From the NCBI GenBank assembly GCA_006384855.1, contig VCJN01002757.1:43931-107930 (forward strand): a DNA stretch of 64,000 bases, read 5' to 3'. Positions 7,560-36,500 of the stretch are shown here, piece by piece. Every line of letters starts with the position of its first letter. Within the stretch, counting starts at the first letter, position 1. The position numbers and the translations under genes are program-made. The stretch comes from Tetraselmis striata. Taxonomy: Eukaryota > Chlorophyta > Chlorodendrophyceae > Chlorodendrales > Chlorodendraceae. The notes beneath the pieces are model-generated. The model was not told the origin of the DNA, ran no database searches, and saw nothing but the letters and a program-made list of their open reading frames with translations.

Positions 7560-8215
7560 CCGAATGCAGCGAGCGGCAGGCGGTGCTGCGGCAGCTACCG
7601 GGCCGGCTGAAGAGGCAGTCCAGCAGGCCAGCTGTACTGCTCGCACGGACGGCCCGGCGCCGGGAAGACCTCGCTCGCCAACTTCTTTGTGCATAAGGCG
7701 TCGCTTGGCGCCTGCACTGCCGTGCCAGCGTTGCATGGCAGCTCTGAGGCGGCGCAGTGCCTAGGCCTGGAAGCGTTTGCGCGGTCGGAGCCGCGAGTGA
7801 GCTCCGGAGACGCGAGATGACTCAATGGAGGATGGAGGATGCGCTGGCTGAGCCGGGTGTGTACCTGCGTTCCTATGACGCTGGTGGACGATGTGGCGGT
7901 AGCGGTGGTGGTCATCAGGGAATGCATACGCCCCTGAGGGTTGCGGCCAGCTGCGGATGACGGCCACCCGGGGCTGCCACCTGAGTGCGCCGTCCAGCTG
8001 GAGGAGCTGAGCGTGGATACTCGCTGCAGCTGCTGGTGAGGCTGGTGAAGGGGAAAGACGCGGAGGTGGAGGCGTAGTTGCCGCCGGTGGAGAGGCTGGT
8101 GGCAGAATCGCTGGTGGGAGGGCTGCCTATCACGGTGGCCGTGGTGACAGCGATCATTGGGGACCGCTCGCTGCCGTTCCCGCAGATCACTATCGCAAGT
8201 CAGGCGGTCAGGCGG
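7560..8215 (+). pseudogene. Decayed NB-ARC / P-loop NTPase gene
   Basis: NB-ARC proteins are nucleotide-operated switches found in plant immune receptors and in some green-algal families. The core motifs occur in the right order and spacing on this strand. A Walker A box GRPGAGKTSLANFF lies at 7641-7680 after a plausible acceptor, a kinase-2-like LVDDV at 7881-7895, an LEELS segment near 7998-8012, and a GLPL-type ESLVGGLPI at about 8105-8132 followed by IIGDRSLPFPQ. They sit in different frames: a frameshift separates LEELS from SLQLLVRLVKGKD, a TAG interrupts before LPPVERLV, and TGA stops occur between the Walker and kinase-2 boxes. Introns could explain some breaks but not the in-frame stop. 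A pseudogene is the simplest reading. Confidence 0.6.
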
Positions 8216-9106
8216 TCTTGGCTCAGAGTCCACATCAAGGGTCACGGCCTAAATATCAAGAATCGTGATGAACGGGTACCCTGAGGATCATGATGATAAG
8301 ATGCCTGATGCATCTGTTGGCCTTCAAAGGGCTCTATGCTGCAGGCTACGGCCAACCCTATGCGGGTTCGTGCATCCGGGCTGGAAGACAGCTGGCGTGC
8401 GAGGTTTGAAGACTGAAAACCTGGTTCATGATTCAACCTGAAACAAATCTCACTTTCAATGGCTCCAGCTGACCTTGATCTATGGTGCGGACCCTTGATC
8501 TCGACAACGGCGGCCGTCATGCGGCGCATTGGCACCCGAGTCTCACTCCAGAACAGGGAGCTGATGCTGCATGAGGGCGCCGACGAGCTGGTCGCGCGAG
8601 TAGACCGCCGTGCCCTCCCTGCGTGCGAGGCGCCGCAGGCGGAAGTCAGTGCGTCGCCGAGCGCACGGAGCGGCATGGCGCAGGGGCGGCGCTCTGATGG
8701 TGCGTTATGGCAAGCCATTGTATGTCTCTGAGGAAAAGGACGGTAAAATTTCAAAGTACACTTAGACATCCTTTTTTATAACAAATTATTTTCATCATCA
8801 CCATCATAAATATATCAAGGGATATATATGTATATATACATATGCATACATACATATGTATACAGATGTACGTATATATCCCTTAACAATATCAGGGAGG
8901 GGAAAGGGGGGGGGGGGGGTAATTAATATATTGAGTTGCGGGGATAAGCCAGCGTTTGCTGAAATAATGTCCACAGTACCTCCTCCAACAGCGAATAGCG
9001 ATAATAATTGCATAGCGCAAAGTCACCATCTTGAATTGTTCCAGTATTTGAAAAGGATATATCGCGGGCTCTGTCTTTAATTGGTATCCAACGGAGCTGT
9101 CACCTG
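8216..9106. other. Intergenic, no confident gene
   Basis: A minus-strand frame near 8540-8660 (RLRRLARREGTAVYSRDQLV) has exon-like composition but no family match or partner exons. The rest is AT-rich with an imperfect palindromic microsatellite. Confidence 0.35.
8816..8886. repeat. Imperfect palindromic AT microsatellite
   Basis: The segment opens with CAAGGGATATATATG and closes with CGTATATATCCCTT, so the arms pair around a TA/CATA repeat. A run of more than ten G follows at about 8908-8919. Confidence 0.8.
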
Positions 9107-9432
9107 TCGACACGTGATATGGAAACATTCTATGGCCGTGCTTTCAAGCTCAGCTTGCGCGGATGTGCAGCCGCATCCGTGTGCTCGTACAAATAGGATC
9201 CCGGAATTGATCCGTAGCAGTCGTTGCAGGATATTGTACCCGTACCGATACGGCGCCAGTAAGTAGCGTTGCGATCAATTGATCACCGTGTACCTGTGCC
9301 CATTTACCATTCTTGGGTACTCTGGTACATCGCAGGTGGTACTACACGACCCATACAGGGACTAACTAAATACGTTGCAGACACGTGCGGTGTTTATATG
9401 TCTAGCGTCAAATCAAGTATAGACCCCCCTAG
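9107..9432. repeat. Dispersed ~300-bp repeat, copy 1
   Basis: Starts near a CACGTGAT box and ends at TCTAGCGTCAAATCAAG. Shared blocks include GCGCGGATGTGCAGCC and AAGTAGCGTTGCGATCAAT. Related copies lie at about 38067-38455 and 38864-39175, inside LTN1 introns. It is non-coding and SINE- or MITE-like in size; I could not define terminal repeats. Confidence 0.75.
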
Positions 9433-9527
9433 TTCTATGTAAAGCAATTAGCAACGGAGTGCCCCGTTGGTCAACATCCGCTCGCACTCGCACATGTCCG
9501 CGTTGGTGTGCGGCAAGGCGGGGCGGG

Positions 9528-12500
9528 TTACCTGAGGTTGGAGCGGCACCACGCCGCGTCTGAACCCCCCGCCAGCACCAGCACATCCTGCCCGGCGGAC
9601 GGCGCCGCGCAGCTGCCGCGCTTTACGGCGACAGGCAGCTCCTTCGCCACCGCCGCCCCCGCGGCTGCCACGAGCGCCTTCAGCTGGCCGGGGTTGCGCT
9701 CCTCCTGGGTGGGCGGGGAGGCCAAGGGGACACGCACATCAGCCACAGAGGTCGCGGAGAGGAGGGGAGTGGGGAGGGCTCGGCGCCGCTCGTGGTGGCC
9801 TCAGAAACAATGCGGCGGCAGGAGGGGGCGGCATGCCGGGGAGTACCTTCAGCAGCTTCGGTGCAAAGAACACTTTGCGACCTGCAATCACGGCGCGCAC
9901 GCACGCACGCACACACGCATACACACACACACACACACACACACACAGCGCGCGGGGGGGGGGGGGGGGGGGGGGCAGAGGTCGTCAGTCGGTCAGCTGC
10001 ACAGATATGCCGGGATGCCTTCACCGTATGGAAGGTGGCCTGGCCTTCAGAGGGCTGCATGCTGTGCGGTACGGCCGACCCTATGCGACTTCACGCAGCC
10101 AAGCCGTAAGACGGCTGGCCTGTGTTCTCGGAAGACTGGCAGGAACACAGTTGTAACACATTTCGAATTTCAAATTTGAAGGCGGCAGCTGCTCTTGCGG
10201 TGGTGCTCCTCAGGGTGCAGCTGACACACCCCTCCCAAGTGGGGACGGCGCGCACCCGCCAGAAGCAGCCCCTGGCGCGCGGCGTCGTAGGCGCCCGCGA
10301 TGCTGAAGCTGTGCTCCTTCTCCGCCGCCTCGTCCTTCAGCAGGAACGGCTCCACGGCAACAAATTGTCTGCCGCGGTGGCCACCGGCAACAGCCACGCA
10401 GTCAGCTTGATGTATAAACGTGTGTGTGTGTGTGTGTGCATAGCGGGGGGGTGATTGATCTGTAAAGGAATTATTATGGTAACTTTTTGCTATGTTAGGC
10501 TACATTATTTTTAGTTGTTAGTTGAAGCGAATTTATAGTTTTTGTCTATACACCCTTGTTGTGTTGTGTTGCTAATAGGTGTTGTTTAACATTCTTTGTG
10601 TATCTATTATTGATGGTTTATGATGTCACTCTGTAGTGGATGACTACTTTTGATTTTTATTATGTTTGAGCGCTGCCCGACTTCATCGCACAGTGAGGCG
10701 CGGCTCAGTAGGGGTCAGGCAGTGGAGAGTGGGGGGGGGGGGGGGGGAGCACAGGTGGCGGAGGCGGGGTGCTGGCGCGGGCACCACCTCTGCTTCTTGC
10801 ATGCGTCCAGCCACCGGACGTCCACAATCGGGCGGCCTAGACAGTGCCCCAGGGCAGCCCATCAGTGCGTTAGGGCTCAGCAGGCGTCGGGTGCCATGGG
10901 GCCATGGCTCCTCACTGGGCATGGGCCCCGTGCCTGTGTGCTCGGCGGCACAATGAAGGGGGAGGGGTTTGGAGGGCGAGGAGGCCGGGGGAGAGGGGGG
11001 GGGGGGGGGGGGGGGGGGGGCACCGGCAGCCAGCGCCAGCAACGTCTTGAAGGACTTTATGAAGCCCTTGCTGTCCTTTCTCTTACCCGCCTGCGGACAT
11101 GAGCGGGTGCATGCAACCGAGTCAGCAGGCCGCGTTCCCGGCATCCAGCCGACGCATCGAGCTTGATGGGCAAAGTTGAGGGGCAAAAAGCGAGACTGTA
11201 GTTGCCAAACACAGGATTGCTCCCCAGTAAGGGAGGGGGGGGGGGGGGGGGGGAAGGGGGGGAGCCAGCCGGCGCGAGACAGCAAAGCGGCAACTGCCAG
11301 CGGCATGTTCCGGGCTGGGTTGGCACTGCCTCCCGTGGCGCAGGAGAGCGCACCATGGTGACGTAGTGCGTGAAGGCCTCGTCCGCAGGCTCGCAGACCT
11401 CGCCGCCCAGAGCCTCGATGGCGGCGGTGTGCCGCTGCAGCAGCGCCTTGCCAATGCAGGTGGAGAACATGACGCGCGGGGGAGAGATGGCGGCGTCCGC
11501 TGCACACGAGGGCGTCGTCGGGGTGTGCCGGGTGGCCTGCGACGCAGTACCGCCGGCATCGGCTGATGCAACCTCCGCAGCCGGCGCGACCCGGAGACGC
11601 TTCCGGGAGCTGCCACTAGGTGTGCTCACCTCCGTTGCTGCGTCCTGAATACCCGGCGACTCGGCAGCAGGCTGGGCTGCGCCTCCGCGCCGCTGCCGCT
11701 TGGCTGACCTTGGTGGCGGCATGGACTCCAGCGCCCCCAGAGCCAGAGCTGCGGCTTGCGTGGTCTCCCCTGGCGGCGTCGGCTGTGTCACGGCCTCCTC
11801 TTCCGTGGCGGTGTCCACGATGTCGGGCGACTCGGTGTTGGGCTGGCTGACGCCTCTCCGCCGCTGCCGCCTTGTGGACCTTGGCGGCGGCATGGACTCG
11901 AGCGCCCCCAGCGCCAGGGCCGCTGCCTGCGTTGTCTCCCCTGGCGGCGTCGGCTGTGTCACGGCCTCCTCTTCCGTGGCGGTGTCCACGATGTCGGGCG
12001 ACTCGGTGTTGGGCTGGCTGACGCCTCTCCGCCGCTGCCGCCTTGTGGACCTTGGCGGCGGCATGGACTCGAGCGCCCCCAGCGCCAGGGCCGCTGCCTG
12101 CGTTGTCTCTCCTGGCGGCGTCGGCTGTGGCGACATCTCCTCCATGGCGGTGTCCGGGACGCCGGGCGACTCGGGAATAGGCAGCCTGGCGCTCCTTTGC
12201 CGCTGCCGCCTTGTCGTCCTTGGCGGCGGCGTGGACTCGGGCGCTCCTGTGGTATCCTGAGTGGTTTCCGCTGACGGCGTGGGCTGACCGACCTCGTCCG
12301 CCATCTCCTCCCCCTCCTCCTCCTCTTGCGCTTGTGCATGTGCCTCTTCCTCCTCTTGGACCGCCTCCACAGGAGCCGCCTCCTCCTCCTCCTCCACCTC
12401 CATATCACCCACCTCCTCCATTGCCTCCTCCATTGCCCCCTCCCGAGCATTTCCCGCCAGCCGTCCATCGCCCGCATCGCCACCCTCAGGCGTGTCTCCC

Positions 12501-15500
12501 TCCGCGCCTCCACCCGCACCCACAGCGCTGCCATCCTCCCCGCTCACCCCCGCGCGGCCACACTCCCCGCTCCTGCCAGCTGGAAGTCCACCGCCGCCCT
12601 CCTCCGTCGGCTCGCCCACCTCCCGCCCGGTCGCCAGTCCCCGCCCCACCGTGCTCCCTGCGGCCACCGTCTGCGGACCACCCACAGCAGCGGGTGCGGC
12701 CCCTTTGCCGGACGTCGCCTCCGGCCCCGCATCCTCGCCGGCCCCCTGCTCCGGCGGCACTGTGGTGGCATCTGAATCACTGGCGGCGGCGCGCCGGCTC
12801 TCCACGCCCTCAGCCTCTTCCCCGCCGTGCTCGCCGTCCTCCATGTCCTCCGGGAGCTCTGTGGCCGAGTCGCTGTCCGCCCCCGCGGCCCCCGCCCCCA
12901 CCCCTGCCACAGCACCACAAAGCGCATCATTTGCCTGAGGGGGGTGGCACTAGCTAGGCCATGCGTGTGAGGCCTGCATCTCACTTGGCGCTAGCAGACA
13001 GAGAGGTATTCCCCTCGCATCTACATCCACTGCAATGTTTATTTGAAGACCTGCGACCCTTACATGCTGCCCGCACGGCGACGGCCCTGCACAGATATGA
13101 CGATGAGGCAACACGGCAACCGGTAAGGAATACTCCCCGCGATTATATTGGTATTGTATCGGCGGTGATTGGGAGGGTTCCAAAGGGGGGGGGGGGGGGG
13201 GGGGGGGGGGGGAGACATCAGTTGGCAACAACACGCCGCAAGGATTTCAGTACAATGATTTCGGTACATTTGATGGTCAGCATGAAATTCACACCAAAAC
13301 GTTTCGAAACAACAATCAGGAATTCCGGAAACAGTTGGAAGTCAACGTGGAAATTGACGGTGATATCCTGAGTATATGTAGTACACATGAGGCAGTCAGA
13401 GTGGCAGTCAATGTAGCTGGTGAAACCAGAGGCGGGAGAGAAACATATGTCCAGCCATTGGTGCCAGTGGGGCTCGTCCAGGTACCCCCTCCCCCCTCCC
13501 CTCCCCCTCCTAGTTGAGCTGTTGCCGGCGCACCAGCAGGAGGAGGCGCCTCCGAGTCAGCAGCCGGCAGGAGTGGAGCGGCATCAGCGCCATCCGCAAC
13601 CGCAGCCAGGCCATCCTCTGCCCGCTCAGGAGCGGCTGGCGCCACGGCCGGCGCCTCCTCTCCCTGCGCGGCGCACGAGGGAGGCGGCTGCATGAGGGCA
13701 CCGCACGCCTCTGCCCCCAAAGACCGCCGCGCTGCAGCTTTAACTGGGAGAGGCGGGCGGGCACGCCCCCACCTGCAGCGCAGTGTCGCCGCACCAGCGG
13801 GAGCGCCAGCTGACGGCCGCGGACTCCATGCAGAAGCGTGACGGCTGCCGGAGCCTCATGGGGGCCTCCGCCTCTGCCGCCGACCTGTGGTGGGTGTCCG
13901 CGGGAAGCGGGCGGGGGGGGGGGGGGGGGGGGGGGAGGGGGAAGCCCGCTGTGAGCTCCCAGCATCGGCACGCACTCCACCCGTACCATTAAATTGGGTC
14001 GCAGGCCTCCAAAACTAAAGAACTGTGTGTTGTGTTCGTATTGTACTATGAGTATTTACCAGCTTTTCTTTTGTTGGGGGGGGGGGGGGGGGGGGAAGGG
14101 GGTAAATCGAATGAATATGCGTGAACCCAAAGAGTGTTTACAGTATGGCATGTGCAACTTGCGCCGCTGCGCGCATGTAGCGTGCTTGTGACGGCCCTGA
14201 GTACGGGTGGGGGCGCAGTATCGGTGGCAATTGGCACGGCGGCTCAACACGTCAGTCGGCCCCCTACCCACCTCCAGCTGTGTGAAACCCCGCCCGCATG
14301 CGCCGCCCACCTGGTCTCGCTGTCGGGGACGGCGCTGCTGCAGGGCTGCGAGCTGCCAGCAGCGGTGCGGAGCCCGACCACGCTGTTCTGCAGCTCCTCC
14401 GCATGGCGGCTGATGAGCGCGTCGCGCGTCGCGCGCAGCGGCTCGTCTGCGGCAGGCACGCGGGGAGCGGCGTGAGACCCCGTGAGACTTCATGGCTCCG
14501 CTGCACAAATCTGCTGATCGTACATGACACCCTGACAAGACTGCCCCTTAACACCCCCCCCCCTTTGACTTCTCTCTCTCAATGCCATGAATCACTACGC
14601 AAAGGCGCCTGCGTTGCCTTGCTGCATGAGCTTCAATGGCGAGAGGTGCAGACTCACCCAGCTGCTCCAAGGGGTCAGCGGGAGCCACATCCTCTGGCCC
14701 ATCTGACTGCTTGTGCTTGATGGTGCGCCACGCAGAGCCTGCCAAGGTTTGTTAACACGCAAGGTTATACTCCGTTAACCCGGGCCAGCGTTCCTCTGCT
14801 GACAAGAGGAATCAGAGCGGGCTGTGGCCATCACAACGGGGCGCGTCGCAGCCAGAGTGGGCCATGGAGGTAGCGGGATACGTTGCGCTTCCTAGAGCGC
14901 ACGCGCACAGGCATGCGTGCGTGGGGGCGTACACACCTGGCGTGCCCCCCTGGCCCCCGCCAGGGGACGAAGACGCCGCGCAGTTGTTTGCTACGCCGGT
15001 GTCGCCACTGCCAGTATTGTCTGTGGCCGTGTTGCCCAGCAATCCTGCCAAGCGCCAGGCCATGCACGGCCTTATCAGTTGCTTGATGGCATCGAATGGC
15101 AGCAGTGAGCGTGGATAGAGGGGGGGGGGGGGGGGGGGATAGAAGGGAGGTAGGAACCGGGCAGCAGCAGCTCCTCTGACTGTGTCGGCGGCACCACATC
15201 CGCCTGCGTGGGTGGCACCACATCTGCCGGGGCAGCCACCAGCTCCTCCGGTATGGCGCCCGGCTCCCGCTGTGACTGGCGGGTGCGCACACGCCAGGTG
15301 GATGCGTCAGCCCGCAGTGGTGGCAATGTGTAAAGCTGAGTGCTCCCGAACGCTGCGGTGCTGGGCAGGATGCTAAACTAATAGAGACGCCACGTTAGCA
15401 GGCAGAGGAGGAAGAGGAGGGGGAGGAGCAGAATGGGCGTACCATTGGCGTGGACTGGGCGGTCAGGAACTCTGGCTCGTCGTCCGAGGCGTCATGGCCG

Positions 15501-17332
15501 CCCTGTGCCGCCGCTGCCGCCCATTGCACCCGCCGCTCGCCTCCAGCCCCTGGTGTGCTGAGGCGCGCCGCAGCAGCCTCCGGCAGCTGCAGCGGTGCAG
15601 ACACAGGCGTGAGCCGTCCCGCGGACCCCGTTCAGACCGCACCCTGGAGGTAAGGAGAGAAATAGGGAGGGGGGGGGATTGTCGCACCGGCAACTGCGCC
15701 GGTGTGGTCTCCTGGCTTAGCAGGCCTCCGCCCTCGGTCTCTGAGCTGGGAATTACCTCCACGGCGGCTGCCGAACTGGCTCCCTCGGCGCTTTGGCGCT
15801 CAGCCGTGTCCTGCGGGGCATAGCATGATCCGCCGGCGGCACCTTATGGGTAGTCGGTGTGGCGAAGGCCGGGCTGTGATCAGGCCCAGGGTAGTCTACG
15901 CCAAAGGGGGGAGGAGGGGAGGGGGGTACATGGTGGCTCTCTTTCAGATCAGCTACCATCTGTTGCTATTATGACATGCGATACACGTCACCCTCTCACA
16001 TACCAACGTGTTCGAAGGGATGAGGGGGAGGGGGAGAAGAGGGGGGGGGGGGGGGGGGTTCCAGCTGCAGGTGCATGTTGACTGCCCAGCGGCCACGCAC
16101 TATGGGGCTAAGCTGGGAGGCTCACAGCTAGGTGTAGGGGTCAAAGTGCTAGGTGTGAAGGCCCACCACCGGCAGCCGGGTCCTGGAGGGCGGCTGGGGA
16201 TGCGGGGGACAACTTGCCGTGAGGTCTACCGGCACCGTCTCCGCATGCAGCAGGCTTCCCGCAGCGCCGTCATCCCCAGGCTCGGCGTCGACGTCCGTGC
16301 TGCTGACGCTGACGGCTGGCGCTGCACCTGTGCCCTCTTGCGCCTCGGCGCTAACGTCGGCGGCCCAGATCTTCACCACCGCCTTGACGTCGCCGAACCT
16401 GCGGTGGCCCGGGGTCCCTGAGGCAGTGACTTAATGGGAAGAGGGAGCGACCCCTGCCATTCCAGCTGTATTCCTGGTCGCGGGTCTCCCGTGCAGGCAA
16501 GGAGGTACACGCACATAGCTGAATGCACGTGGGGCGAGGCCCCGGGCTGGCACCTGACAAGCTCGCCGTGCGACATGCCAAACTTGACATGCGGCTGGCA
16601 GCGCAGGTTGGCGCCGCCGCGCGCAATGAAGGTCCCGTTGGTGCTGCCGAGGTCAGTGAGGAACCACGCCTGCCCCGCGCCCGTGAGCTCCAGCTCTGCG
16701 TGCTTCTTCGAGATACAGCCGCTCGACAAGCGCAGCGCTGGCGGCCCCTCGCTGTCGGTGCCTTCCCCCTCCAGGGCAGAGCTGGAGGAAGGCGCGCCCG
16801 CCGCTGCTCGGGCCACCAGGTTAGCTCCTGTCGGGAGCCAGCCACGGCGTGAGCGTGCCACCTTGCAAGCGCTGTATCAGTTTCATCACAAGTCTCCGAT
16901 TTTGAGTTGGAGGAATAGTGAAGGGGGCTGGGGGGGGGGGGGGGGTACAGGCGCACCAACATACAGAGGCAGTACAGTGCCTTCGCCGCCTTGAACTGTT
17001 AGGCTTCCTGCCTGCGAGACGCGATGGGTGGTGTTTCAGGGAGACGGGGGGTGGGAGTTGAGCCCGCAGGTTGAGCGGCGGCTGCACGAGGGTACTTGCG
17101 GGGGGGGGGGGGGGGGGGGGTGTTGTTGGCTGGGCGGTGGGTCAGATCATTCACTGAGCCCCTCCGCCTCCGCGGGCTCCCTATTGGGTCTCAGGCTGAT
17201 CGGAGAAGGTGGGCAGTGGTGCTGGCCGCACGCTCCCACCTCCACACGCTTGGGGGCGCCGCCGGGAAGCAGTCCCGCCTCCGCCTCCTCCTCGGGCCCC
17301 CACAGCGCTTGCGTCTCCCCTAAGTCGGCCAT
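9528..17332 (-). CDS. MDC1-like checkpoint mediator: FHA, SQ/TQ repeats, tandem BRCT
   Basis: Probable nuclear DNA-damage scaffold. In animals MDC1 binds phosphorylated H2A.X through its BRCT pair and recruits other repair factors. Nineteen exons encode 1215 aa. The N-terminus MADLGETQALWG plus an acidic stretch resembles the start of animal MDC1. The FHA domain (about 33-155) has CISKKHAEL and LTDLGSTNGTF, covering the family's Ser, His and Asn contacts. A long disordered region follows, with an acidic block (residues ~550-760) and about 14 SQ/TQ sites. BRCT1 (about 1026-1118) has VMFSTCIGKALLQ, LGGEV, FTHYVTM, SFKTLLALAAG and VDVRWLDACKK, in register with animal MDC1 including the phosphate-contacting Thr and Lys. 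BRCT2 has RKVFFAPKLLK, QLKALVAAAGA and QDVLVLAGG, then meets TAA early. Arabidopsis BCP4 has been proposed as the plant MDC1 counterpart. Confidence 0.85.
9888..9975. repeat. (CA)n followed by a poly-G run in an MDC1-like intron
   Basis: A dinucleotide run near 9900-9947 followed by an uninterrupted G run of about 22 bases. It lies just upstream of the small BRCT2 exon 9881-9847. A GT run at about 10421-10439 lies in another intron of the gene. Confidence 0.9.
11650..12330 (-). repeat. 171-bp in-frame tandem repeat (57 aa, about 4 copies)
   Basis: Each unit encodes TPPGETTQAAALALGALES, then MPPPRSTRRQRRRGVSQ, then an ESPDIVDTATEEEAVTQ acidic end. The two central copies are nearly identical and the outer two have diverged. 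The period is a multiple of three, as expected for a coding repeat. It adds one SQ and one or two TQ sites per unit. Confidence 0.9.
13064..17332 (-). other. Exon model, 5' half of the MDC1-like gene
   Basis: Minus-strand exons: 17332-17240 (start), 17011-16957, 16827-16554 (FHA core), 16398-16230, 15810-15688, 15586-15443, 15335-15158, 15044-14937, 14738-14658, 14446-14311, 13884-13773, 13663-13534, and a 23-nt microexon 13086-13064. Donors are mostly GTGxGx. Phases match at each junction. The acceptor at 15586 and the microexon are the least certain. Confidence 0.75.
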
Positions 17333-17699
17333 CGCGGCTTATCAATCTTCCTCGCCTCGGCCGTGCGCAGCCAGCTGGGGAGTGAGAGGGACGGAGCGAC
17401 GCGCTTCTGAGCGGCAATGCCACTGGCTAGGAAGGGCAGCACGCACGTGCCTGCCTGACGTCTCCTGCTATCCTTCTGACGGGAGTGAGGGGTTTGGTTA
17501 CACGGGGTAGGGTCGGGCGAAGGCAGAGTAGCGACTACTAAGGATTACTACTGACGGGAGTCGTATCGTCGCGGCCGTGCAGGTACCCTGTAGGGATTAG
17601 TACCAGTAATCCTTGGGGAACTGCCCTTTTTGTAATTCACAACCAGTACCAGTACCAGTAATCCTTACCTGTTGTATTTTTCCCGCCTCCGGGCCAGGA
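17333..17699. other. Intergenic upstream of the MDC1-like gene
   Basis: The first ~100 bp are GC-rich and probably hold the promoter. They are followed by short AGTACCAGTA-type motifs and one perfect GTAGCGACTAC at 17528-17538. No gene is seen. Confidence 0.4.
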
Positions 17700-18545
17700 C
17701 TGGCACCAGTGAAACCCTTGCAGCGTCTCTACGACGGCCGTTTGGGCATCCGCAGCAATCCAGCTACGGAAAGCCCTGGGTGGGCGACGCTCCGTATCGT
17801 CATGAAGCAAATTGCCAAAGCATTCTGCAAGACTAATTAAAGGCTAGTGACAGAATTTCCGACATTGTTGGATCACCGTCTAAAACACTGCCATGAAAAA
17901 ATACCCGGCACTGACCACGAAAGGTCCGCCCTACCCGTTTGGGCGTCAGCCCATTCGAGTAATGCGAGTTGGGGCAAGCCCCAACCCGCGGAGCAAAGCA
18001 TTTCGGGAGTGCGATACATGTGCAACAAAGAAGGCAATGTGAGGGAGGGCCCGACACCATAGCTAGAAAATTTTCCCATTCCTAGTAAAATTAAGGGCGC
18101 CGTGAAGGGAGGGGGGGACCCCGCCCAAAATAAAGGCAGTTAAGTCCTCGGATGTTGATGCAATAACCTGACTATTAATAAAATCCCCGAACTCCGAAAC
18201 TAAGAACTCAAAATTATGACGATGATAACGCCACCCACCGCGGGCACTACACCAACATAGGTTCGATAGTCTCAGATTCACCTCCACCACATGCATGGCA
18301 GTGCTCTAGGAACCGCTCATGCATGGCATGAATCCGGGCCAATCGGCGGGCAGTGGGAAATAGTCGGGTGCGTAATTGTATCATATTGTGCACCTGTTGC
18401 GTACCTGTTGTGTCGGGTTTTTTTAATTTTCCCCGCACCTGTGACCGCGCTGGCACCATCGAAAGAAACCCTTTTTGCGTCTCTACGACGGCCGTTTAGG
18501 CAGCGATCCAGTTGCGGAATACCCTGGGTAGGTGACGCTCCGTCG
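17700..18545 (-). mobile_element. Non-LTR retrotransposon (LINE) 3' remnant, copy 1
   Basis: The minus strand encodes the zinc-knuckle end typical of LINE reverse transcriptases: RFLEHCHACGGGESETIE followed by a CPRW-like segment in the next frame. The open frames 18459-18247, 18296-18063 and 18060-17833 are fragments of one decayed sequence. Direct repeats of ~95 bp containing CTCTACGACGGCCGTTT flank it (about 17710-17800 and 18450-18545). A related copy in opposite orientation lies at 55560-56420. The upstream reverse-transcriptase core is missing. Confidence 0.6.
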
Positions 18546-23002: not shown

Positions 23003-25469
23003 ATGGGCACCGTTCGGGCGGCGCTTTGCCGCCGCCTCGGCGATCCGGCGGGAGGTGCAAGCGCCGCGCCTGCTCTGGCGGTGGAGGACGTGGTGCGCAG
23101 GGAGCTGGCGGAGCGGGAGGTCCGCATCCGCGTGGCGGCCGCGGGCGTCAACTTCGCTGACGTGTTGCAGCTCCAGGGCAAATACCAGGAGAAGCCTAGC
23201 CTGCCGTTTGTGCCGGGCAGCGAGGTAAGCCCCCCGCTGTCGGCCCCAGCCCAGTTAGCTGAAAAAATCACGGTGATGGTGGTATAGTGGGTCCAACACA
23301 GTGATCAGACTCGGGCTTCGCCTCAGGTATCAGTCGCATGCGCCTGGCAGGGACACGCCCTAGGAATAGAGCGATGGTGCACGACGAGTCGTACCTCGCT
23401 CGTACGGTCGCCTGTACGACAGAGCTGGCAAGGGACCTGTGGCCGCCTCGTCACGCGCGAAATATCTCTAGAATCATGCTCGTGTTGATTACTCTGTGCA
23501 GTCACGTTGCAGCATCTTCCGCCAAGGTCACTTGCAGTTCTTTTAACCCCCTGCCTTCCTCTTCCACCGCTCCTCCCGTCTTCCCGCTTGGGCGCACAGC
23601 CTGTAGCGCTACTCGTACCACCCATGCTGTCGGCTCTCGTATATAAATATTGTAGCGACTAAATGTCCTCGTCTTTTGTAGCTTCGCGCTCTCAGCTGCA
23701 ATGGACAAGTCGTGGCAGGAAGTAGGCGCCAATTGTTAGCTGCACAACACTACTGTTTTTCTCTTTGTGCCTGCTTCAGGCTGCAGCTAGCGCGCGTAAT
23801 AACCTGTGTCAGCCTTCGGTACTAAAAGTGTTACTAGAGGTACAGATAGCCAGACTGTGGGTATTCATGGTAAATCGTCGAAATTAACTTACATATCAAT
23901 AATGCTATCCGCACCACTTTTGAAATCCTTGCCCAGAATTGTGGTTGGCCTCCGCCCTCAGCTTACAGCTCTGCTTATGTACGCATACAGCTGTCCGGCG
24001 AAGTGATCGAGGTGGGCCCCGGCGTGGCGTCTCTACGCCCCGGCGACGCCGTGGTCGCGGTGGTGAGCACCGGTGCCTTTGCCGCGGAGGCAGTCGCACC
24101 CGAGGTCGCCTGCTGGGCGCTGCCGCCAGGCGTTGATGTTGCAGCCGCGGCGGGGCTGCCCATTGCATTTGGCACCGCGCACGTGGCGCTGGCGCTGCGG
24201 GCGGGGCTGCGGCCCGGGCAGGTGGTGCTCGTGCTGGGGGCCGCGGGCGGCGTGGGCCTTGCCGCGGTGGCCCTGACAAAGCTCATGGGTGGCACTGTGG
24301 TCGCTGTGGCTGCGGGGGCGGCCAAGGGCGCCGCGGTGCGTGCTGCCGGCGCGGATTTCTGGGTGGACAGCGCCGACCCAAAGCTGGACCTGCGCAGCGC
24401 CGTGAAGGCCGTGGTGCCGAGCGGCGTGGACATTCTGTTTGACACCGTCGGCGGCCGCGCGTTCTCCGCCGGCATAAGGTTGTCCCCTTCTCTGCCTGGA
24501 CGTACCTGCGCATTCTCGGACTTAACACACTACCGTTTGCCCGTGTCCTTGTCTATGCCCCCGTCATGCCCTGAAGATTGTGTCCCGGGACACTGTGAGA
24601 CAGGTGCATGAAGTGGGGCGGCGAGGTGCTAGTGATCGGCTTTGCCAGCGGCGAGATCCCGCGCATCGCGACCAATGTGGTGCTGGTCAAGAACCTCACG
24701 CTGCACGGCGTGTACTGGGGCATGTACCTCCGCAACAGCCCTTCCGTGCTGCGCGACAGCATGCAGCAGCTGCTGGCATGGGCGGCGGAGGGGCGGCTGG
24801 CGCCGCGTGTGTGCGCGCGCTTCCCACTAGAGCAGGTGCAGCAGGCCCTCGGCGTTCTCTTCAGCCGAAAGGCCATCGGCAAGGTGCTCCCCCCTTTTTC
24901 ACCGACAGGATGAAGAAACTGCGTGATTTGACGCAATACTATTAACAAAGCAGTAGGTTCAAGCGGTACAGATCCATTGAATCCATAGCTTAATTGTGAC
25001 CATCGAGTGGAAAACACCTGTCAGTCTGAGCCCGAAGCTGCTCACCTATCACCGAACTATCACAATCACAACCACTATGATTATCACTGGAGTACCATTT
25101 CTGATTGTCGGCCTTCGGACTTGAATGAACGAGAGAGGCACAGAGAGTTGATATGTGACAGAACCGTAGAATGATGGCACAGCACACCACCGATATGTGA
25201 AATGTTGACATTAGATTTTGCACGGGTTCTTGTATAAAATGTTGCATGTTCAGATAGATGTAAAGCCGTCCTGTTGATACCAATACCGAGTATGATATTG
25301 CCACTGATATTCTTAAGGTCTTCATTAAATGCCACAATATTGTCAGAATGAGTTCAATATGCTTTGTTCCTGGCTCCTCCCACCAGCGGTTGCTCACCCC
25401 CCACTGTTCTCCTCTCCCCTACAGGTCCTCCTGCTGCCCGAGGCGCCGGGCCCCGGAGCGCGTCTATGA
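23003..25469 (+). CDS. NADPH:quinone oxidoreductase-like MDR protein
   Basis: Probable soluble oxidoreductase of the zinc-free quinone-oxidoreductase branch of the MDR superfamily, reducing quinones or enals with NADPH. Four exons: 23003-23224, 23991-24478, 24604-24883, 25425-25469, total 344 aa with matching phases. The catalytic half has AAGVNFADVLQLQGKY and PFVPGSE/LSGEVIEVGPGV. The Rossmann half has VLVLGAAGGVGLAAVALTK (nucleotide-binding AxxGxxG), then GVDILFDTVGGRAF and GGEVLVIGFASGEIPRI. The end is SRKAIGK/VLLLPEAPG. The last exon is only 15 codons. Without it the frame would run to a stop at 24911, with a C-terminus atypical for the family. Zinc ligands are absent, as expected. A TGTAA poly(A)-type signal lies at about 25884. 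Confidence 0.92.
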
Positions 25470-33542: not shown

Positions 33543-36500
33543 CTACCACGGCGACTGGCAGTGCGGGCAGTTGGACTTGCCGCTGGAGCGGAACCACTTG
33601 TACAGGCATGCGGCGTGGAACCTCTTGGTGCAGGTGCGGCAGCTCAGGCGCGGGAGCGAGCGGTTGGCGGGGTGGATCACGCTGTAGCAGATCAGGCACT
33701 CCTCCAGGCCTGCGCAGCCAGCCCGTCACGGCGCAGAACAGACACCCACATCGTCAGCGCTGACAGCCGCTGCAACCATTCACGAGCACGGCAGCAAGGG
33801 AGACAATAGATGGCCGGGGGGGGGGGGTTGAAACGCCACGGTGTCGGACCTTCGAACTCCTTTTGGACGTTGCGGCGCCACAGCTCAATGGCGTCGCCCA
33901 CCGAGCCGTTGTAGTTGCGCAGGAAGACGTTGATGGACATCAGCCACTTGCGAAGGCGGCCCTCGCTGACGCCCACCTTCTCCCGCACGTCCGCCTCCGC
34001 CGGGCGCAGCGGGAAGCTGGCCGGCAGCTTGACCACCAGCTCCAGCTTGGCATCGTCCTCGATCTCCACCACCGCCACGATCTCGCGCACCGCGGGGTTG
34101 GTCTTGACGGCGAAGCTTTCCAGGCTCTGCGCGGCGGCAAACTCCTGGATGCCGCGCATCTCCGCCTCGATCAGTCGCGGGCTCTCCCGCTGGATGGTGT
34201 AGCGCTCCAGCGCGGCCAGCGCGGCGCTGTCGCGGAGGTCGTTGAACCACAGCCTGGCGCGGCACGGCACGGCGGGTGAGCCAGCCGCCGGCGCAACAGG
34301 CTGCCCATGGGAGAGGGGAGCCCCGGCACACGCGCGCACACACACACGCACACGCACACGCACACACATCCCTTGTTTGATGTCTGCGAAAAAGACATCA
34401 CGAGAAGTGTACTGCCGGTAGTCCTGACTCAACAGTCATGGCATGGAATGGCATGGAATGGCATGGAATGGAATGCCATGCCATGGCATGGCATGGCATG
34501 GCATGGCATGGCATGGAATTAGAATAGAATAGAGTAGAGTAGAGTAGAGTAGAGTAGAGTAGAGTAGAGTAGAGTAGAGTAGAGTAGAGTGGAGTGGAGT
34601 GGAGTGGAGTGGAGTGGAGTGGAGTGGAGTGGAGTGGAGTGGAGTGGAGTGGAGTGGAATGGAATGGAATGGAATGGAATGGAATGGAATGGAATGGAAT
34701 GGAATGGAATGGAATGGAATGGAATGGAATGGAATGGAATGGAATGGAATAGAATGGAATGGAATGGAATGGAATGGAATGGAATGGAATGGAATGGAAT
34801 GGAATGGAATGGAATGGAATGGAATGGAATGGAATGGAATGGAATGGAATGGAATGGAATGGAATGGAATGGAATGGAATGGAATAGAATAGAATAGAAT
34901 AGAATAGAATAGAATAGAATAGAATAGAATAGAATAGAATAGAATAGAATAGAATAGAATAGAATAGAATAGAATAGAATAGAATAGAATAGAATAGAAT
35001 AGAATAGAATAGAATAGAATAGAATAGAATAGAATAGAATAGAATAGAATAGAATAGAATAGAATAGAATAGAATAGAATAGAATAGAATAGAATAGAAT
35101 AGAATAGAAATTAGAATAGAATAGAATAGAATAGAATAGAATAGAATAGAATAGAATAGAATAGAATAGAATAGAATAGAATAGAATAGAATAGAATAGA
35201 ATAGAATAGAATAGAATGGAATAGAATAGAATAGAATAGAATGGAATGTGAAAATAGAAAATGTGTTGATAGTTTGGATTATTTTGAAAGAAAACTGACA
35301 GATACATCTCGGTTGTATCGCGGATTGATTCGGGAGAGCACCAAGTACATTGTTTGAGTTTGTGTTGCCCATTTATTCAGGGAAAGTATACTTTCAGTGT
35401 TAGAAATTACATAGCCATACAGGAATGCGGACCGATGCGCCATGATAACGTCAATCATACTGATAACCGATGGCAACGATTACGAGTTACATATTGGAAT
35501 GAGGAGCGATGCGCAACAATTTCGCGCGCGCGGAATAACGGTGTAACGGAACGTGTAACAGACGCGTCCGCATGCTGGTAAGGATTACATTGTGTGTCTG
35601 GTATAAGTATTATATCATAAGGATATATAAACGCCGTGTACAGGTACTAATTGAGTGTTCTAGACATGCAGGATTACGTAGTCTTTACCGCGTCTACACA
35701 GTCTGTTACGATGGAACTTCAGCAATAATAATAAGGAACATAATCATAGCAGAATGTAATAGAGCAGAATAGAAAAAAAACGCTAGAAGCGTGGACAAAC
35801 ACAGCCATGCACCGCCGTTTCAAAGGCCACCTACGCGCTAGTACTAAATATAATGCAGGGAGCAGATGGCTATAGGTATTTATTGGAAAAGAGTTAGGAG
35901 GGGGGTGTTTGCGACTCGTCCAGCAGCTTGCAGGGGAATTGGAACCGGTAGTTGTGAAGCTTACCTGCAGAAACATCCAGAAAGAGCAGCGGGCAAGAAG
36001 GGCAGCGATCTAAGGGGAAGGGAGGGGGGGGGGGGGGGGGGCTTCACCGGATGCTTGCCGGCAATGTCCTCACGACAGACGCAAAGATGCCGGCGGCGAG
36101 CGGCGTGCTGGCGTACGACCGAGGCGCCGCGGGCTGGGCCAGGATGCCGCGCAGCTGGGCCAGGCTGCTCTCTGGTGGGCTAGGGGTGGCTGCCTGCTGC
36201 TGCTGCTGCTTGCCTGCATGCACATGCGCATGGCGCCCACGACACAAGGAGAATGGTTGACGGGGAGGGGAAGGGGGGGGGGGGGGTGGGGGGGCTCAGC
36301 CGCCAGAGTCCCAGGCTACGCTGCTGGCTCAGCCAATGTATCGGGTGAGATGCAGAGGGCCGTGTCCGCAGCAAGAGCACAAAAGCCAAAGACGCTTCGC
36401 TACCGCATGTCGTTTATCGCACATGACGACATCCGCCCCCTTCACAAGCGATCTACCGTTCTTGCCGCGGCCCCTGCTGCCCCAATTATTCAACAATAGG

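Follow-up and report, generated by a model that had tools for sequence, protein, structure and literature searches.

The window analysed in this study, i.e., the whole 64,000-nucleotide stretch of Tetraselmis striata DNA (C2223:43931-107930, where C2223 is contig VCJN01002757.1 of a 224-Mb assembly with 2903 contigs), carries on its minus strand a gene that was predicted to encode a protein of 1243 residues. The plastid-type rbcL of the assembly had 1gk8 (Chlamydomonas) as its best PDB match, in front of chains such as 4hhh (pea), which identifies the host as a green alga, probably a chlorophyte. In the gene, a TQ start, an FHA domain, S/T-Q sites and a tandem BRCT domain (tBRCT) are all present in the order known from animal MDC1, as the original prediction had claimed. 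We consider it likely, with a probability of roughly 0.73, that this is one nuclear gene that encodes an MDC1-type mediator of DNA-damage (gamma-H2A.X) signalling. This reading was adopted because each end of the protein independently resembles MDC1 and because the genome encodes an SQEF-tailed H2A.

The gene model was built from genomic DNA: the minus strand was translated in its three frames, and the exons were joined by GT-AG borders and phase. It comprises 19 exons and 18 GT-AG introns, all in phase, which run from 17332 to 8543 without a frameshift and give a coding length of 3732 bases including the stop; two in-frame stops lie directly 5' of the exon 1 ATG. The gene had first been thought to end at 9528. 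In the present model this position is not its end: the TAA found there belongs to the splice donor CTCAG/GTAACC, and the gene end was moved to 8543 with a further 76-base exon (8543-8618) that had been missed. Its acceptor at 8618 is in phase, and it codes for REGTAVYSRDQLVGALMQHQLPVLE followed by the stop codon, which completes BRCT2 and aligns to the C-terminal ends of both PTIP and MDC1. The features of the gene, all on the minus strand, are as follows.

17240..17332, minus strand: exon 1, with Met1, the TQ motif (T7-Q8 = 17309-17314) and an acidic run; donor GAG/GTGGGA
16957..17011, minus strand: exon 2, first FHA strands (GSLTVQGGEGTVLPLYVG), with a weak alignment to the beginning of the FHA of mouse MDC1
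16554..16827, minus strand: exon 3, FHA core with R56, S89, K90, H92, N113 and G114
16230..16398, minus strand: exon 4, final FHA strands and start of the linker; phase-matched, the FHA match reaching residue 143
15688..15810, minus strand: exon 5, linker with one SQ; own frame best of the three sense frames
15443..15586, minus strand: exon 6, linker; own frame best of the three sense frames
15158..15377, minus strand: exon 7, S/T-Q cluster (TQLY, SQ, TQ, TQ); weak donor GTTCCT
14937..15044, minus strand: exon 8, linker; placed by splice and phase joining
14658..14738, minus strand: exon 9, linker; placed by splice and phase joining
14311..14446, minus strand: exon 10, linker with one SQ; placed by splice and phase joining
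13773..13884, minus strand: exon 11, linker; placed by splice and phase joining
13534..13687, minus strand: exon 12, linker; the least certain exon, its own frame not best by codon score
11354..12903, minus strand: exon 13, open over 1550 bases, with acidic SDS motifs, nine S/T-Q sites and the start of BRCT1 (P1032 at 11479)
11670..12244, minus strand: tandem repeat within exon 13, 57 residues in 3.4 copies, period 171 (Tandem Repeats Finder)
11024..11090, minus strand: exon 14, phosphate-side helix of BRCT1 (R1077, K1085, K1088)
10788..10836, minus strand: exon 15, Trp motif of BRCT1 (VDVRWLDACKKQ, W1104)
10256..10368, minus strand: exon 16, acidic loop and inter-BRCT stretch
9847..9881, minus strand: exon 17, first strand of BRCT2
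9532..9704, minus strand: exon 18, BRCT2; its donor CTCAG/GTAACC contains the stop first proposed
8543..8618, minus strand: exon 19, end of BRCT2 with D1228 and the stop codon; acceptor CACGCAG/GG

In a codon test that was trained on 791 codons from Pfam-confirmed stretches, 17 of the 19 exons scored highest in their own frame when the three sense frames were compared, the exceptions being exons 2 and 12. Domain homology backs exons 2 and 19, while exon 12 has no other backing and is a weak point of the model, as are the donors of exons 4, 7 and 12 and the acceptors of exons 6, 12 and 13, which were choices. Twelve G or C runs of at least 12 bases lie in window positions 8000-18000, many of them in the introns of this gene, and 15 such runs were counted between 40 and 50 kb. 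Elsewhere in the window, one of ten other open reading frames compared with Pfam gave a match, a zinc-binding dehydrogenase fragment on the plus strand at 23874-24608 (ADH_zinc_N, 9.9e-13), and a long low-complexity stretch at 34400-35400 codes for repeated FYSIL on its minus strand.

The FHA domain, which is spread over exons 2-4, was recognised in the spliced protein by the Pfam model PF00498 at residues 81-143 (E 1.4e-8, 35.5 bits, cut-off 20.7), and the exon 3 part was also matched in the six-frame search (C2223:60552-60665, i.e., window 16622-16735). Residues R56, S89, K90, H92, N113 and G114 occupy the places that hold phosphothreonine in FHA proteins. The TQ start, E-T7-Q8-A-L in exon 1, has Leu at +3 of T7; the N-terminus of human MDC1 likewise has a TQ that is bound by its own FHA, a feature for which the literature search returned no paper. 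When the FHA was compared with all of the PDB chains, the first four rows were MDC1 (best E 1.6e-4), followed by TB39.8 (E 0.0033). Of the other 18 FHA matches in the genome, two were compared as bare sequence stretches (72 and 54 residues); they had Kanadaptin and TB39.8 in first place and MDC1 only at rows 17 and 27. In the reverse direction, with the FHA domains of mouse and human MDC1 as queries, this gene led the 19 FHA matches at 26.5 and 24.6 bits, the runner-up scoring 17.1 and 16.6; it kept this place when represented solely by exon 3 and its junction residues (18.9 vs 17.1 and 21.3 vs 16.6). The FHA models of NCBIfam were generic and below their cut-offs, and the BRCT pair had no match there. 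The genome-wide listing has 19 FHA matches at E up to 0.001 and 22 BRCT matches at E up to 1, and no contig in it holds both; the BRCT exons of this window are themselves too short to enter it. Judged from these sequence comparisons, the occurrence of both domains on one contig, each above its curated cut-off, is more than chance. Some of the FHA matches occur in equal-score pairs on two contigs (C2643 and C1708; C43 and C403), as if both haplotypes or duplicates had been assembled.

The protein terminates with BRCT2. Its BRCT pair was matched in two stretches by the Pfam model BRCT_2 (E 1.1e-7, 32.5 bits, cut-off 27.3), so that both domains held up in the profile check that had been proposed for the translation, while the classic BRCT model PF00533 gave 13.3 bits only and remained under its cut-off of 21.3. 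A comparison of the pair with all of the PDB chains (E up to 1) returned 10 rows: PTIP (3sqd; 42.5 bits, 6e-10), four rows of MDC1 (38.7 bits, 9e-9) and, lower, Brc1 (26.8 bits), Pol lambda (17.2), BRCA1 (16.8), Mdb1 (14.2) and Pol lambda again (13.3). Brc1 and this PTIP BRCT pair bind gamma-H2A. Mdb1 is described as doing so as well (PMC4013092), and human PAXIP1 as reaching foci independently of gamma-H2A.X binding (PMC11014961). The algal tBRCT shares 52 of 204 aligned columns with MDC1 and 46 of 191 with PTIP. The tBRCT domains of MDC1 and PTIP ranked this gene first among itself and the 22 BRCT matches, a ranking biased in its favour, as it entered the comparison in spliced form and the other matches as individual exons. 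The MDC1-like tBRCT exons matched C2223 only. Searching the unspliced genome with the human MDC1 tBRCT (142 residues) gave two weak matches (E 0.33 and 3.87), this short-exon gene not being among them, and no BRCT was visible by eye in the translations around those two places. The tBRCT alignment pattern also picked out 164 stretches in viral contigs and 118 in prokaryote genomes, none of which was confirmed as a relative. Since one further profile search included MDC1 and PTIP among its own sequences, its ranking is circular, and the search served as a source of the letters of these two proteins. On C2292, a BRCT match was found in a stretch of composition unlike that of the window; it resembles what we take to be a bacterial NAD-dependent DNA ligase, and C2292 is probably a bacterial contig within the assembly.

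The residues of the putative phosphopeptide pocket were compared with those of human MDC1. The BRCT1 alignment with human MDC1 has no gap over the part that starts at K1088 and takes in W1104 and the acidic linker, which agrees with the gap-free alignment reported earlier for this part; an insertion of eight residues precedes K1088. Human K1936 is kept as K1088, and T1898 and E2063 are conservatively replaced by S1037 and D1228, the latter being presumed to correspond after counting back from the C-terminus of human MDC1. PMC11014961 and PMC4013092 describe what the human residues do. According to the former, BCP4 binds gamma-H2A.X in vitro with an Asn in place of K1936 and the R/E pair kept; judged against that protein, the algal pocket seems, from its residues, no further from human MDC1 than the pocket of BCP4.

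The protein carries 16 S/T-Q sites (10 TQ and 6 SQ), four of which are in the linker exon 7 and nine in exon 13. Composition shuffles gave a mean of 8.1 +/- 2.6 sites and reached at least 16 in 10 of 2000 cases; however, because seven of the 16 sites fall inside the 57-residue tandem repeat, the count is inflated by duplication and the sites are not independent. The repeat (Tandem Repeats Finder score 840, 89% matches) carries TTQ, SQP and VTQP, and each copy holds a basic, arginine-rich stretch of the RRQRRRG type. It may be likened to the PST repeats of human MDC1, which are likewise positively charged and are described as binding the nucleosome acidic patch (PMC6858307), by analogy and not by homology. 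A TQ followed by a hydrophobic residue at +3 was found at two sites, TQAL at 7 and TQLY at 299, and acidic motifs of the SDS type at 566 and 598 (DSDSATE and SDSDATT). No Pfam family above its cut-off was found in residues 557-1027.

Possible partners were found elsewhere in the genome. One of three H2A loci ends in ASGSVSQEF before its stop codon and another in SEKKA; the SQEF-tailed H2A is located on C338 (C338:3001-13000), with its end near contig position 7967. The palindrome GGTGTTATTAACACC lies 3' of both this gene and the H2A gene on C1753. The tetranucleotide composition of the H2A.X stretch correlated with that of window 18-40 kb at 0.786, compared to 0.825-0.876 for five other stretches of C2223 and C1753 and 0.675 for a bacterial-looking contig. 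Six FATC ends, which mark PIKK kinases, were also present in the genome. In PMC11014961, SQEF-type H2A is described as missing from some unicellular green algae.

Several observations weigh against an MDC1-type protein. PTIP and not MDC1 was the top PDB match of the BRCT pair, and the tBRCT is about equidistant from both, with pairwise scores of 145 to MDC1 (z 25.9) and 141 to PTIP (z 23.4). Since the score between MDC1 and PTIP is 245, the algal tBRCT lies outside this animal pair by sequence. BRCT1 alone has a higher z-score with PTIP (13.0) than with MDC1 (10.4), and BRCT2 has 10.8 with MDC1 and 10.5 with PTIP. Placement with PTIP, which had been named as a finding that would speak against MDC1, was thus checked by pairwise scores with MDC1 and PTIP only, and these were nearly equal. 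In the pocket, G1899 is changed to T1038, and the counterpart of R1933 is ambiguous, although basic either way: the computed alignments, which set the eight-residue insertion between R1077 and K1088, point to R1077, while K1085 keeps the three-residue spacing to the K1936 position. None of the 10 TQ of the protein is a TQxF, which lowers strict membership in the MDC1 family, and there is no SDTD in the protein; TQxF repeats are described as docking RNF8 in vertebrates and invertebrates and SDTD motifs as docking NBS1 in vertebrates only (PMC11014961). NBS1 itself had no match in the genome with PF16508 and PF08599, a negative that is uninformative because such searches do not suit domains that are intron-split and diverged, and the PF16508 control also matched nowhere. 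Compared with the intact H2A on C1753, the H2A.X copy contains one extra base, which shifts the frame after AGLQFPVG, and the H2B that is divergently paired with it also changes frame, whereas the H2A/H2B pair on C1753 reads through; these shifts are perhaps assembly errors. Finally, an antisense frame outscored the own frame in exons 7, 11, 12 and 19, so that the codon test supports the gene model without proving each exon.

These points leave room for other explanations. A green-algal tBRCT protein of the BCP4/PTIP type that gained an FHA of its own and converged on MDC1 would account for a tBRCT that does not favour MDC1 over PTIP, and Lorkovic 2024 argues for an independent gain of the other parts in plants and animals (PMC11014961). 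We regard this as less likely: among the PDB chains, the nearest to the FHA itself is that of MDC1, this FHA also follows a TQ start at the N-terminus, and the same domain pair is ascribed to amoebozoan homologues (PMC4013092). It also overlaps with the MDC1-type explanation, as such a protein could still read gamma-H2A.X. That two neighbouring genes were read as one, an FHA/TQ protein ending near 14247 and an SQ/TQ-BRCT protein, appears improbable. Exon 10 read through its donor does reach an in-frame stop near 14247, a TGTAA occurs at 14142, and exons 11 and 12 are weak by codon scores; yet the chain of exons 10-13 is in phase and both ends are independently MDC1-like. TGTAA was not clearly enriched after the six FATC-defined gene ends (8 sites vs 5.6 expected) and is therefore a poor gene-end marker here that says little either way, the first one beyond 8543 being 2439 bases away.

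An orthologue of NBS1 or PTIP is the least credible explanation and very unlikely; in its favour are the FHA and tBRCT of the former and the top BRCT match of the latter. PTIP is not known to have an FHA and has more BRCT domains, in several pairs, whereas the algal protein has one FHA and no Pfam BRCT match in residues 1-1027. NBS1 shares an FHA and a BRCT pair with it, but in NBS1 these form an adjacent, N-terminal FHA-BRCT-BRCT unit; the BRCTs of Xrs2/Nbs1 are described as lying directly behind the FHA (PMC12400192), while here they are about 880 residues away. Neither an additional BRCT nor an NBS1 domain was recognised by Pfam in residues 1-556 and 557-1027, and nibrin was absent from the 10 PDB rows and lower, at 31.6 bits, in the profile search.

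All of the 119 metazoan MDC1 proteins are described as having an FHA and a tBRCT (PMC11014961), and the algal protein shares with them the N-terminal TQ, the FHA, an S/T-Q-rich repetitive linker and a C-terminal tBRCT, whose pocket may be of the gamma-H2A.X type. It differs in its repeat, in the missing TQxF and SDTD, in the BRCT1 insertion and in its 1243 residues, human MDC1 being longer. Set against Arabidopsis BCP4 and BCP3 as they are described, it has in common the C-terminal tBRCT and TQ-x-hydrophobic motifs, which in those proteins lie in a disordered N-terminal part; unlike them, it has an FHA and is without SQSQ, DWD and DTQ, although DWD and DTQ are reported not to occur in all plant groups (PMC11014961). 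The assumption that BCP4 lacks an FHA was borne out by Lorkovic 2024, in which BCP3 and BCP4 are described without it (PMC11014961); Arabidopsis XIP is likewise described without an FHA domain in a 2022 paper (PMC9792525). BCP1 and BCP4 are stated not to be unambiguously identifiable in most unicellular green algae (PMC11014961). The amoebozoan proteins EAL70982 of Dictyostelium and EFA74881 of Polysphondylium are described as combining an FHA with a C-terminal tBRCT (Wei 2014, PMC4013092) and are thus alike by description, while Mdb1 of S. pombe, the weak match of 14.2 bits, is described as having no obvious FHA (PMC4013092). No report of an MDC1 with FHA and tBRCT in green algae was found among the matches listed in the open-licence literature.

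Most likely, judging by its motifs, the protein would act as a gamma-H2A.X reader that self-associates via its FHA and phospho-TQ and provides docking sites at its S/T-Q motifs. Once a double-strand break has occurred, an ATM-type kinase would phosphorylate the SQEF tail of H2A, and the BRCT pair would bind pS-Q-E-F together with the free carboxyl end of the histone. The phosphate would be contacted by S1037 and K1088, which correspond to human T1898 and K1936, and the carboxyl end by R1077 or K1085 with D1228, corresponding to R1933 and E2063. The same kinase could phosphorylate T7 (pT-Q-A-L), which would be held by the FHA of a second molecule, and the S/T-Q repeats, which would serve as docking sites for additional effectors with FHA or BRCT domains. 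Contact with nucleosomes, in the manner of the human PST repeats, may be made by the arginine-rich segment of each repeat.

Lorkovic 2024 describes the tBRCT as the only MDC1 feature that is common to opisthokonts and plants and concludes that the plant and animal mediators evolved independently and gained their other parts separately (PMC11014961). We tentatively propose, at somewhat short of even odds, that a mediator with FHA, S/T-Q linker and tBRCT was ancestral to Amorphea and Archaeplastida, i.e., close to the last eukaryotic ancestor, that it stayed whole in green algae with H2A.X and that land-plant BCP4 is a remnant; such an ancestry with FHA loss in land plants is plausible. That FHA and tBRCT may be an old family feature is not a new idea, as the amoebozoan cases were already printed in 2014 (Wei 2014, PMC4013092); what the alga would add is the Archaeplastida side of this layout. 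With its FHA, ATM-type sites, tBRCT and SQEF histone, it would allow a direct test of the independent-evolution conclusion of Lorkovic 2024 and may offer a single-celled plant-side system for gamma-H2A.X signalling.

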